Source: Lachnospiraceae bacterium (GTDB taxonomy: Bacteria; Bacillota; Clostridia; Lachnospirales; Lachnospiraceae). From it: a stretch of 64,000 bases of DNA. How positions within the stretch are numbered: position 1 is the first letter of the stretch; each line of letters starts with the position of its first letter. Below the pieces are notes generated by a model, which was not told where the DNA came from, made no database searches, and was given only the letters and a program-made list of their open reading frames with translations. The position numbers and the translations under genes were made by a program. Of this stretch, positions 27,715 to 63,947 are shown piece after piece. The stretch lies in the NCBI GenBank assembly GCA_022791755.1, contig JAAVZR010000043.1, forward strand, positions 160,930-224,929. The letters are read 5' to 3'.

Positions 27715-27933
27715 TCAGATATCCAGATTGGGAGGGATATCCAACTCCTCCGATACATATTTCCCGTTCTTCTTTCTCTGCCTGACACACTCGGTCAGAA
27801 GATACTCGATCTGCCCGTTTACCGACCGGAAATCATCCTCAGCCCAGGCTGCAATCGCATTGTAAAGCTTCGCGGACAAGCGCAGCGGCACCTGCTTCTT
27901 CTGGGCATCTGCTTTTTTCTGGTTATCAGCCAT
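27715..27933 (-). CDS. Arc-type ribbon-helix-helix protein
   Basis: [42 protein letters not shown]. Confidence 0.85.
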
Positions 27934-28957: not shown

Positions 28958-29296
28958 TCAATGTCTCCTATCTTTTTGATATCAAAATCATATCATATCA
29001 ATCTGTTTTTGTCAACAGAGTCTTTCCCGTATTTTTCAAACTGCCCCTTCCTTTTCCGGAGATTCTATGCTACACTAGAGCGTGTTTGCAAATTACTTTC
29101 TGACGGCTGCCTTCTCTGTGCAGCCATAAAACGGAGGATATTGTTATAAAACTGGAAATTGAGCCTTAATACCAAGAAAAAGGACAAGGCATGAAAGAAT
29201 GTCCTGTCCTTTCTGAAATGTGGAGGATTGGTAAAGATTTTTGGTGCAGGCGTATATAATATTAGAGAATATGGATGCGACGGAGTGTTTAATAAT

Positions 29297-30139
29297 ATGA
29301 GTGTATATAAATACGATATTACTAAAGAGCTTGTATACAAAACAGTAGACTCATCATTAAAGATGCCAATGGCTAAAATGGAAAGAGACATGATTGTAAA
29401 AGCGTTTTCGCTATACAAAAAAGTAACATATTTTAATGCAAAAACAGTAAGGCTTGAAAATATAGAAGATCAAAATGAAAAGTCGATAATAAAATTGTCA
29501 CTGATAGATTTTTTCGATTTTCTGGTAATTAATATTGTATCACTACAATTAGATGATTTTATTCAATATATAAAGTCTAATGATATGTACCATGATTTAC
29601 ATGATGTTATCAATAGACTTAAGCACTATTGTATGGAGATGAGAAAGGTAGACGACTTTAAAACACTAATCTACAGGGGGATGTCCTCTAATGCACTTGC
29701 AGTAAGCGTTTTGCTCTCGGATGATAATGGCGATTATTTGCTTACTCAAAGAAGCAAAAAAGTGGGAATAAGCGAAAAATTTCATAGTGTTTCCGCAACC
29801 GGAACTGTAGATGAAGTCGATTACTGTAGTGCAGATCCATTGAAGAATTGTGTAGTCAGAGAACTGCATGAAGAATTAAATATACATGTAAACAACGAAA
29901 ATCTTCAAATGCATTCAATTGTTGCTGGGAAAAATAAATTACAACCTATAGTAATAATAAATGGAAGAATAGAAGGCATATTTAGTGAATTATTGAATAG
30001 AGCAAACGAGGCAAAAGATTTCACATATGAAGTAGATAAGTTGTGCATAGCGAATAGAGAATTATTAAAAACAATCTTAACTAATAACAAATTTACAGAG
30101 GCAGTAGAGTATCATATAAAAACTGTAGCAGAATTGTAG
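29297..30139 (+). CDS. Atypical Nudix-domain protein with conserved N-terminal extension (paralog 1)
   Basis: SVSATGTVDEVDYCSADPLKNCVVRELHEELNI; ATG at 29297 preferred over the TTG at 29228. AT-rich. Confidence 0.8.
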   Translation: MSVYKYDITKELVYKTVDSSLKMPMAKMERDMIVKAFSLYKKVTYFNAKTVRLENIEDQNEKSIIKLSLIDFFDFLVINIVSLQLDDFIQYIKSNDMYHDLHDVINRLKHYCMEMRKVDDFKTLIYRGMSSNALAVSVLLSDDNGDYLLTQRSKKVGISEKFHSVSATGTVDEVDYCSADPLKNCVVRELHEELNIHVNNENLQMHSIVAGKNKLQPIVIINGRIEGIFSELLNRANEAKDFTYEVDKLCIANRELLKTILTNNKFTEAVEYHIKTVAEL

Positions 30140-30150
30140 TTGCGAGAAAG

Positions 30151-31200
30151 ATGTGGGCAATGGGGCTGTATTTGTGTGAAATACTAAAGGATTTGTTGAC
30201 AAATTTAATAAAAGTAACTATAACTGGCGGAGTACTATGGGGTGTTGTTTTATTAAATTATTATTTAAAGAGAAACCAGTTGTTTATTTGCAAGGGAATC
30301 AAACCTTCCAATAGAGTATTTCGTTGTATGAACATAGCTTTCGAAGAAATACGAATTGAGGAGGATGAAAAGAAGTTTAAGAATATATTTGATGAAAAAG
30401 AAAAGAAACAGTTATTGGCACATTCAGCCGGAAAGAAAATCTTTGATGGAGATATGGTAAGGTTATCAAAAGTTAATAATAATATTTGTTTTGTACAAAA
30501 AATAAAATATTTTGATTTTTTAACAACAAATCTTATATTTAAACCAGCCAGTTCAAAATTATTATCGCCTAAAGATGCCTTGTGGCATATGATTTTTGAT
30601 GAAGAATTTCGAGTTAGAAATAAGCTGGAAAATCGTCTTAAATCTAAAGTGGCATGGTATGGAAAATTAAAATCATTTGATGCTATTCTTAATGTTGATG
30701 AATTCGCAAATGCAATTGCTACCAGTGTAGTATTACGAGATAATCAGGACAGGATTCTTATTGTAAAGCGTAGCAATAAAAATGCAATATCTTCAGGAGA
30801 TTTTGCTGTTAGTGCCACAGGCAGCCTTAAAATCGAAGATTTGGAGAAAGAAAACCCATTTATTTGTGCAGGCTTGCGCGAGGTAAAGGAAGAACTTAAC
30901 TTAGATGTTCCATTAAAAATAACTGATATTATTATTGTAAAACAAAAATATCAACCGGTTATTTTGATGGAGGGTAAGATAGAACAAAACTTTAGCGAAC
31001 TAGTGGAAACAATAAAAAAAGCAATAGATTATAATAATGAAAATACTAAAATTTATGCTGTACCCTGTAAGGAAATAAGAGGAATCGCAAGAAAATATAA
31101 GTTTACAGATACAAGTATTTATCAATTAGCGGGGACATGTAATGCTTTATCTTGGTTTTTTACTAAAAAGCGGAATATACATAAATACGAACTCAAATAA
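30151..31200 (+). CDS. Atypical Nudix-domain protein with N-terminal TM segment (paralog 2)
   Basis: N-terminal TM LLTNLIKVTITGGVLWGVVLLNYYL; AVSATGSLKIEDLEKENPFICAGLREVKEELNL; homologous to 29297..30139 in both halves. Confidence 0.8.
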   Translation: MWAMGLYLCEILKDLLTNLIKVTITGGVLWGVVLLNYYLKRNQLFICKGIKPSNRVFRCMNIAFEEIRIEEDEKKFKNIFDEKEKKQLLAHSAGKKIFDGDMVRLSKVNNNICFVQKIKYFDFLTTNLIFKPASSKLLSPKDALWHMIFDEEFRVRNKLENRLKSKVAWYGKLKSFDAILNVDEFANAIATSVVLRDNQDRILIVKRSNKNAISSGDFAVSATGSLKIEDLEKENPFICAGLREVKEELNLDVPLKITDIIIVKQKYQPVILMEGKIEQNFSELVETIKKAIDYNNENTKIYAVPCKEIRGIARKYKFTDTSIYQLAGTCNALSWFFTKKRNIHKYELK

Positions 31201-31282
31201 TTATATACAATGATGGCTATTTTCTTTGAAACCGCTTTATGAAGCTAAACAAATTGATATCTTGTTGAAAGGAGCTTTTACT

Positions 31283-31391
31283 ATGGATAAAATCGGATAT
31301 TGATTTTGGTAATTGTACTTTGACGATTAGTCGGTCAAGCCCATTTACCGATGATGCAGCAGATATACTGTGCAAGCAGAAGCAGAAATAA
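31283..31391 (+). pseudogene. Short frameshifted ORF remnant
   Basis: AAAGGAG RBS and ATG GAT AAA, then a one-base shift into SDIDFGNCTLTISRSSPFTDDAADILCKQKQK-stop. Confidence 0.35.
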
Positions 31392-31448
31392 CTCTGAGAG
31401 ACGAAAACCCTATAAAATATAGAAAAACCAAAGGAGATTAAGATAAAA

Positions 31449-61328: not shown

Positions 61329-63947
61329 CTACCACTTCATCCCGATCGCCTCCAGCCGTGCCGTTCTCTCCTGTGACAGTACCCGGCTCCTTCCTTCTCT
61401 GTGGCATTTCCTCTGCCGTCCCAGCCACAGATCCAGGCGAAACCCATCCTCAGTGCTATGTCCCTTCTCCACATCCAGATGCCCGTATGCCCGGTAATAC
61501 TCCTGTGCCCGTATAAAGGCGTTTTCCCACGCCCGTTCCCCTGGCGTGAGCCAGTCCATACCGATGGCGGTCAGTGCGCTGATCTGCTCTTTCGTCAATC
61601 CTTCGCCCTGTCTTTCACACCGGTAGCGCTCCCGCTGCAGATACAGCCACTTTCCCAGCCAGACCCCATCCTCTGTCACATAACTCTGGGACAGATTCAG
61701 ATTACCATGCTCCTCATAATACCGGCGGGCCAGCTCCCATTTCTCCATCCAGGGATCTGTCTCCCAGATCATGCCAATGGCCGTGAGCCTTTCCTTCCGG
61801 CTGCGCCCGATCTCCGACATATTTTCTGCCATGCACTCTCCCAGAGAAGCTCTCTGCTGGTAAAGCCATCTTCCCAGAGAAAGCCCGTTCCCCGATTCAT
61901 AGTAGTACGGTACATCCAGGGATCCCTTTTCATTAAAATACGCCCGGGCTGCTTCATAATACTGCTCCCAGCGCTCTTTCTGCCGGCCTTCCCAGTTCAT
62001 CCCGATCCGGTCAAGCCTTTGGATCTGCTCCTGCGTCAGCGGCAATGCCCCTTTCTTCTCTCCCCGGCGGTTCTGGCGCTGGGCTATGAGCCAGTTTCCG
62101 AGGCGAAAGCCTTCCTCCGTCGTATACCCGGCTGGTACACTTATGTTCCCATGACGTTCGTAGTACCGTCTGGCCGCTTCATATCCCCGCTCCCATTTAT
62201 ACGAAAGCTTGTCCCAGATCATACCGATCTGCTCCAGCTGTCTTTGTCTCTGGCCGCTCAGAATCCGGCTCCCGTTCTGACGGTACTGACGGATATTGTT
62301 CAGCCACATCCCCAGGCGGAAGCCTTCCTCCGTCACATACGACGCCTTCACATCCAGATTTCCCATCCTGGCATAATAGCGGGCCGCCTGGGCGTAGTAC
62401 TGGTCCCACTGCCGGTCCGAATAGCTCTCCCAGCAAATCTCCAGCTTCTCTAGCTTCTCAATCTGCTCCCTGCTCAGCCTCCCCGGTATTTTTCCCATGT
62501 AAATCCGCCTCTGTGTCAGAATCCAGCTGCCCAGAGAAAGCCCGGAAGGCGATACGTACCCCGCCGGAACCTCCAGATTTCCTTCCTTTATATAATACTG
62601 TTCTGCCGCTCTGTAGTACTCCTCCCACCCGGCGCTCAGTTTCTCCTGAAGCTGCCTGAAAAGCTTTCCCGCCTCATGCGTCTCATCCAGGATCTGAAAA
62701 CCGGAAAACGGTACGGCTCTCTCCTCCCTGTCATTTCGAATCGCCCCCTCTGACAGCGCCTCCTCGTATTCCGCCTCAATGGAGCAGATGCTGTACAGGT
62801 TCTCGAAATTATTGACGATATCCAATACCAGCGGCGCTTCCTGCCTGCCGGATGCATTTTTTCTTCCGGCAGTCAATGCCCGGCCAATCTGCTGTTTATA
62901 GATGACCGGAGATACGGTCGGCCTCATCAGAATCACGCCGTCCACATCCTCCAGATGGATTCCCTCGTTGAGCATATCAATGCAAAACAAAAGCCTCAGA
63001 CCGGCTTTTCCATCCTCTTTAAAATCCTGAAATTCTCTTTCACTTTCGGAATAATCCGCAAACACCGTGTATATCCGATACTCCGGACAGATTGGGCCAA
63101 ACCATTCTGCCCCATGGCTCTTCATCTCCTCCAAATGTGTCACACCAGAACAGAATACGATATACTTTCCGGACGGCTGTAAATACTTTTTAAAAACTGT
63201 CTCCAGACCTCCTGCCTGTTCCAGTGCCCTCTTCAGCCGATAGAGCTGCTTTTCGGCCGCTTTGCGCCTCTTCTCGTCCTTTAAGGCCTGAACCTTTTTC
63301 TGATACCGCTTCCACTCATCCTCACAGCGATATATGGATACTACATAACGAGGTGCGCGCAAAATTCCTCTGGCGATCGCTTCACCCAAAGTCATCTCTG
63401 ATGCAATATTCCCTCCGAACAGCTCCTCCGCCATATCCCTCTGCTCATCCAGATAACGAAGTTTCGTAGCGGAGAGGCCCAGTACCTTTGCCTTCGGCCA
63501 GGCCGCCAGCAGAGCCTTCACTCCCCGGCTCCATTCTGCGGCCCCGCAGCGGTGAAACTCATCTAAAATAATATACCCTATGGGAGGAAGAGCATTTTCC
63601 GAATCAGAATTCCTATGCTTCTGAGGAGAACACTCTTTTGGTATCTGAGAAACCCGGTCCCTATTCGCCATCAGGCGGGCATATGTCATAAATATGATAT
63701 TATCCATCTGACCGTCCGGATCTGCTTTTCTGCGGTTTTCACACTGCTGAGCAAAGATATACCGACTGGGTGACAGCCAACAGACGCAGCTCTCCAAATG
63801 CTCCTCTGCCAGCTTAAATGCAATAAACGATTTACCTGTTCCTGTCGGGTGGATCACCGCAGCCTTATTGGCACGCTCCATCATGGCCAACGCTGCTTCA
63901 TATGCTTTTCTGTTATGTTCATATAAACAGAGCGCCACTTCACCCAC
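61329..63947 (-). CDS. DEAD/DEAH-type helicase with six C-terminal helicase-associated (HA) repeats
   Basis: IHPTGTGKSFIAFKLAEEHL (Walker A), ILDEFHRCGAAEW, FCIDMLNEGIHLEDVDGVILMRPTVSPVIYKQQIGRAL; six W-YY-A-YY-G-L-V...G-LG-WL-QR...L-IGM-W repeats. Start GTG at 63947 or 63938. Confidence 0.92.
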   Translation of the reverse strand: MGEVALCLYEHNRKAYEAALAMMERANKAAVIHPTGTGKSFIAFKLAEEHLESCVCWLSPSRYIFAQQCENRRKADPDGQMDNIIFMTYARLMANRDRVSQIPKECSPQKHRNSDSENALPPIGYIILDEFHRCGAAEWSRGVKALLAAWPKAKVLGLSATKLRYLDEQRDMAEELFGGNIASEMTLGEAIARGILRAPRYVVSIYRCEDEWKRYQKKVQALKDEKRRKAAEKQLYRLKRALEQAGGLETVFKKYLQPSGKYIVFCSGVTHLEEMKSHGAEWFGPICPEYRIYTVFADYSESEREFQDFKEDGKAGLRLLFCIDMLNEGIHLEDVDGVILMRPTVSPVIYKQQIGRALTAGRKNASGRQEAPLVLDIVNNFENLYSICSIEAEYEEALSEGAIRNDREERAVPFSGFQILDETHEAGKLFRQLQEKLSAGWEEYYRAAEQYYIKEGNLEVPAGYVSPSGLSLGSWILTQRRIYMGKIPGRLSREQIEKLEKLEICWESYSDRQWDQYYAQAARYYARMGNLDVKASYVTEEGFRLGMWLNNIRQYRQNGSRILSGQRQRQLEQIGMIWDKLSYKWERGYEAARRYYERHGNISVPAGYTTEEGFRLGNWLIAQRQNRRGEKKGALPLTQEQIQRLDRIGMNWEGRQKERWEQYYEAARAYFNEKGSLDVPYYYESGNGLSLGRWLYQQRASLGECMAENMSEIGRSRKERLTAIGMIWETDPWMEKWELARRYYEEHGNLNLSQSYVTEDGVWLGKWLYLQRERYRCERQGEGLTKEQISALTAIGMDWLTPGERAWENAFIRAQEYYRAYGHLDVEKGHSTEDGFRLDLWLGRQRKCHREGRSRVLSQERTARLEAIGMKW
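61332..62580 (-). repeat. Six tandem approx. 69-aa HA-domain repeats within the helicase CDS
   Basis: Repeated pattern ending (L)xxIGMxW. Approximate outer boundary. Confidence 0.8.

Follow-up and report, generated by a model that had tools for sequence, protein, structure and literature searches.

Two adjacent genes between an SPFH gene and ychF in a Lachnospiraceae genome raise the question of whether a Nudix pair, one partner soluble and the other apparently bound to the membrane, forms an undescribed signalling or defence system or a set of ordinary nucleotide hydrolases. The locus was analysed within a window, the whole stretch of 64,000 nucleotides under study, and comprises the following features.

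29000..31420, no strand: AT-rich, foreign-looking island; the right edge lies directly 5' of ychF and the left edge is set by composition alone
29297-30139, + strand: gene 1 (protein P0001), 280 aa, soluble N-module and Nudix protein
29402..29539, + strand: N-module core of gene 1 (aa 36-81, VRL ... FFDFLVIN), from the alignment and the window-free profile
29858..29875, + strand: Nudix box core RELHEE of gene 1 (aa 188-193)
30151-31200, + strand: gene 2 (protein P0002), 349 aa, hydrophobic N-terminal segment, N-module and Nudix
30178..30264, + strand: hydrophobic N-terminal segment of gene 2 (~aa 10-38), a probable single transmembrane segment (TM)
30418..30537, + strand: N-module core of gene 2 (aa 90-129, VRL ... 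YFDFLTTN), from the alignment and the window-free profile
30877..30894, + strand: Nudix box core REVKEE of gene 2 (aa 243-248)

The two genes share the + strand with a spacing of 11 nt, and both are full length with no internal stops. Gene 1 has a GGAG ~9 nt 5' of its ATG. The site before gene 2 is weaker, and a possible alternative ATG lies nine bases on (30160). The GC content of the 2.4-kb stretch is ~0.31 (0.29-0.35 per 500 nt) compared with ~0.55 outside, and GC3 is 0.27 in gene 1 and 0.24 in gene 2 compared with 0.67-0.71 in ychF, the SPFH gene and a nearby sigma-factor gene. The SPFH gene, on the - strand, was recognised by a Band_7 match. The composition and this match bear out the sequence-only reading in placing an AT-rich pair between a GC-richer SPFH gene and ychF. 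Low GC alone is not unusual here, since further AT-rich DNA occurs in the same window as a glycan cluster from ~36.7 kb. Comparisons with five congeneric ychF loci showed similarity to the window only from ~31413-31429 rightward, just before ychF; upstream of ychF these genomes carry other genes and the island is absent. Thus, the island does not belong to a conserved locus, and its absence from the five congeners together with its foreign composition supports the earlier view of a horizontally gained accessory region.

Several smaller elements accompany the locus. A 14-nt imperfect inverted repeat (AAAGGACAAGGCAT/ATGTCCTGTCCTTT, 29179-29212, + strand) forms a hairpin upstream of the pair, with a fold z-score of -3.4 and no T-run, and occurs once in the window. 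A possible broken small ORF (DIDFGNCTLTISRSSPFTDDAADILCKQKQK, ~31299-31392) separates gene 2 from ychF; no match to it was found in plasmids or phages. Rfam and tRNA scans returned nothing credible. Directly downstream of the SPFH gene, a 72-aa protein (27718-27933, - strand) shows a weak ribbon-helix-helix/ParD-like match.

The proteins of the pair are homologous, with 29% identity over 246 aligned positions (BLASTP, E=5e-24), which confirms that two related Nudix partners are present. The N-halves alone align weakly (E=0.005), at a score reached by 5 of 1000 shuffles. A profile of seven relatives from which the window sequences were left out matched the N-half of the gene 1 protein with 35 bits (E=6e-9) and that of the gene 2 protein with 24 bits (E=3e-5; Z=10000 for both). 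Detection of both N-halves by this window-free profile indicates that the shared N-terminal module (N-module), with the approximate signature NGxxVRL ... YFDFLxTN, is real beyond the Nudix part. The module had been described as a new domain shared by the two partners; it is indeed uncatalogued, but it is not private to the pair and is found across scattered relatives. In the tree, the order among the two window proteins, the protein of genome G925 and the rest is unresolved, and the two window proteins as sisters are neither supported nor rejected (p-AU 0.3); the pairs G829/G127 and G098/G254 form a supported side. AlphaFold models from the two-row alignment were poor (mean pLDDT 39 and 41).

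Pfam NUDIX (PF00293) matches the gene 1 protein with 25.9 bits (E=1.1e-5), above the cut-off of 21.1, and its homologue from gene 2 with 17.6 bits (E=0.0039), below that cut-off. The REuxEE core is intact in both proteins, and its R, E, E and E columns are invariant in a four-member alignment. Compared with the canonical GX5EX7REUXEEXGU, the first E is D and the final G is N in both proteins, and the spacing to RE is 12 rather than 7, the loop before RE being five residues longer. A strong match to a characterised housekeeping family was looked for and none was found: no curated hydrolase family and no NCBIfam family reaches its cut-off, and searches against solved structures gave nothing credible. 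The gene 1 protein matches the phage MutT/NUDIX family phrog_1198 (E=5e-5). A match to the PADLOC model PDC-S07 is weak (16.4 bits) and short of full length, covering 26 of 135 positions at the catalytic motif only. The intact core in both proteins and the matches of the gene 1 protein to generic NUDIX and phrog_1198 would suit ordinary accessory house-cleaning hydrolases, working in tandem to sanitise or salvage nucleotides, with one of the two tethered near the membrane and no part in signalling or defence. However, no curated hydrolase family is reached at cut-off, and house-cleaning Nudix enzymes are not known to carry a family-specific N-module and a TM, which counts against this possible explanation.

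An N-terminal TM is absent in the gene 1 protein. That of the gene 2 protein is borderline by hydropathy (maximum 1.55), compared with ~1.7-3.2 in the relatives, of which those in G925, G706 and G976 have a clear TM near the N-terminus. The proposed division into one soluble and one membrane-anchored partner thus holds for gene 1 and is weaker for gene 2, where the segment is clear only in the relatives. Judged from its sequence, the gene 2 protein is probably membrane-anchored.

Single-sequence searches showed how isolated the pair is. The gene 1 protein has no relative outside its own genome among 299 same-family genomes, and the gene 2 protein no close relative among 392 same-class genomes. 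Plasmids and phages hold no close relative by single sequence, no relative was found in the viral contigs scanned, and the matches from a scan of genome contigs all resemble ordinary Nudix hydrolases. A plasmid protein of 281 aa from Streptomyces is weakly related (23% identity, E=8e-4). The family profile search found matches in 57 of 260 genomes, nearly all to the Nudix box alone; the only ones to extend far into the N-module are those in G127, G098 and G254, three genomes of the window's own family. Profile searches also showed single-gene proteins with TM, N-module and Nudix in G925, G706, G976 and G829, which have the architecture of gene 2 at 20-28% identity but stand unpaired, without a soluble partner. 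Broken copies occur in G897 (in two frames) and G949 (split). By these comparisons the N-module marks a scattered Bacillota family of mostly single-gene, predicted membrane-anchored N-module and Nudix proteins, of which the libraries searched contain no description.

Some relatives are fused to signalling domains. The G127 protein, from the window's own family, keeps the order of TM, N-module and Nudix (profile E=3e-23) and differs from the window proteins in having two TM helices and, at its N-terminus, a PP2C-like phosphatase; the PP2C-type match (PF13672, E=4e-5) lies 0.3 bits under the cut-off. This fusion is encoded at L063 70-2403, and no described family was found for such a PP2C-like/TM/N-module/Nudix protein. 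The G098 member has a stretch after it with a weak likeness to PP2C (E=0.008 to G127). The Nudix box is degenerate in G098 (SEIHDE) and in G254 (LEISYE), both on the Lachnospiraceae side; the fold is kept and the box residues are lost, a pattern to be expected of proteins that retain binding but not catalysis. A looser group, G1026 and G1030, has a related Nudix domain with an SVTGT-type box like that of the window family (E=5.6e-15 and 2.5e-12). These proteins differ in having no TM and in being fused to diguanylate cyclase (GGDEF) and HD domains, and their match begins at the Nudix part, so that an N-module is uncertain. The Nudix-GGDEF-HD fusions, at L027 3902-5911 and L028 742-2802, are an unusual domain joining in their own right.

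The preferred reading, to which we assign a probability of about 0.4, is that the pair is a horizontally gained operon whose two genes are diverged paralogues within an undescribed Nudix family, acting in membrane-linked nucleotide sensing with a soluble partner form. Consistent with it, the combination of TM, N-module and Nudix recurs in G925, G706, G976 and G829. Sensing is favoured over plain house-cleaning because of the signalling fusions and the decayed boxes in G098 and G254. However, ordinary hydrolases encoded in tandem are almost as likely an explanation, and the fact that most relatives stand alone, with partner genes absent, speaks for them.

Membrane-linked sensing by the pair could work as follows. 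The gene 2 protein would probably sit in the inner membrane, with its Nudix domain and N-module held at the cytoplasmic face, where the Nudix domain would bind, and probably hydrolyse, a diphosphate-linked nucleotide signal or stress metabolite. The soluble gene 1 protein, with the same module and box, may work on the same ligand or pair with the gene 2 protein, and might thereby set a threshold or end the signal. Against this mechanism, an interaction between the two proteins has no recurrence behind it, the pair being absent at other loci.

Eight related loci were inspected for neighbours (G925, G706, G897, G976, G829, G127, G098 and G254), and an adjacent second copy was found at none of them (0/8), those of G925 and G254 lying near contig ends. 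Therefore, the two genes do not recur together as a system. The expected recurrence of a fixed-order pair was not borne out, an outcome that the sequence-only reading had itself named as refuting; so far the pair is known from this genome alone, and the proposal of a two-gene system lacks support. The same loci bear on the idea that gene 1 is a dedicated antidote of a membrane effector encoded by gene 2, neutralising it as a heterodimer in a toxin-antitoxin-like order with the antidote first. Gene order, the short spacing and the paralogy agree with this, but the gene 2 relatives at all eight loci lack a soluble partner, so that the family can do without a dedicated antidote, and we hold such a role to be quite improbable. 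That the pair is a decaying or recently gained, non-functional remnant is improbable: the broken relatives in G897 and G949 and the great rarity of the pair among relatives would fit, but both window genes are full length and their box residues are intact.

Defence genes adjoin three of the eight loci, as a plain count in which two of the three fall within one family. In G706, an SMC ATPase ~2 kb away matches LmuB of Lamassu (E=1e-26) and belongs to a set that includes a SIR2-like gene, and the gene in G897, of the same family as G706, adjoins a similar LmuB-like gene (E=7e-18). In G098, the gene sits with GmrSD, BnzB-like and AbiD genes. The neighbours in these three genomes are suggestive of defence islands. 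The G829 gene lies between transposase-like genes. Two Lamassu-like three-gene sets (SIR2-like, small, SMC) were located near a TM-Nudix gene, at L029 3566-8374 and L043 7306-12000, in two genera of one family. The proposed role in defence or signalling is thus hinted at by the Lamassu-like and GmrSD/AbiD neighbours and by the PP2C-like and GGDEF-HD fusions; however, no signal-making partner enzyme was found next to the pair, and the one PADLOC match (PDC-S07) is weak. The pair itself is possibly related to defence.

TM-Nudix effectors are known from CBASS and from reverse-transcriptase-associated systems. Like gene 2, Cap16 (Sa_NUDIX, PF18167) is an accessory gene product with an N-terminal TM and a C-terminal Nudix-type domain, and this CBASS effector, which is toxic through the membrane, stays toxic when its NUDIX domain is mutated (PMC10419184). 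The gene 2 protein could similarly oligomerise on a cyclic nucleotide made by a cyclase encoded elsewhere in the genome and damage the membrane, with the gene 1 protein degrading the signal. In favour of this is the likeness in general layout to a membrane-toxic protein joining TM and NUDIX (PMC10419184). However, Sa_NUDIX has no match in the window's genome (G000) even at E<=1, nor does it appear in a Pfam scan of the two proteins at that threshold, and no CD-NTase was found among the genes around the pair. A genuine Cap16-type protein adjoining a CD-NTase is present in G207, another genome of the same family; it does not align with the window family (hhalign probability 0.8%, the match being confined to the TM region at the N-terminus), and the VRL...YFDF module of the window family was not seen in it. 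Membership of Cap16/Sa_NUDIX was rejected on these three grounds (no Sa_NUDIX match, the hhalign result and no adjacent cyclase), and a Cap16-like effector is very improbable here.

RTasNUDIX, a PADLOC model listed under DRT systems, likewise joins TM and Nudix and belongs to a defence setting. Neither window protein is matched by this model, yet it matches the G207 Cap16-type protein strongly (E=8e-57), and no reverse transcriptase was seen near the pair. Membership of RTasNUDIX (DRT) was rejected on the missing model match. By every sequence test made, the window family is separate from the CBASS and reverse-transcriptase-associated TM-Nudix effectors.

The family has an uncatalogued N-terminal module of its own and, in one relative, a fused PP2C-like phosphatase; should nucleotide sensing at the membrane prove true, it would be an independent lineage of nucleotide receptors. 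With one soluble and one membrane form, the pair lends itself to a simple two-gene test of signal sensing versus signal breaking. A broader and unlikely extension is that TM, YFDF-TN module and Nudix together define an unrecognised class of membrane-linked nucleotide receptors feeding phosphatase or effector outputs in immunity or stress, with the soluble paralogue destroying or buffering the signal as a built-in off switch.

Elsewhere in the window, the - strand at 61332-63947 encodes a DEAD/ResIII helicase of 872 aa that carries six helicase-associated (HA) repeats and matches, over part of its length, the PADLOC PbeA and type IV restriction models.
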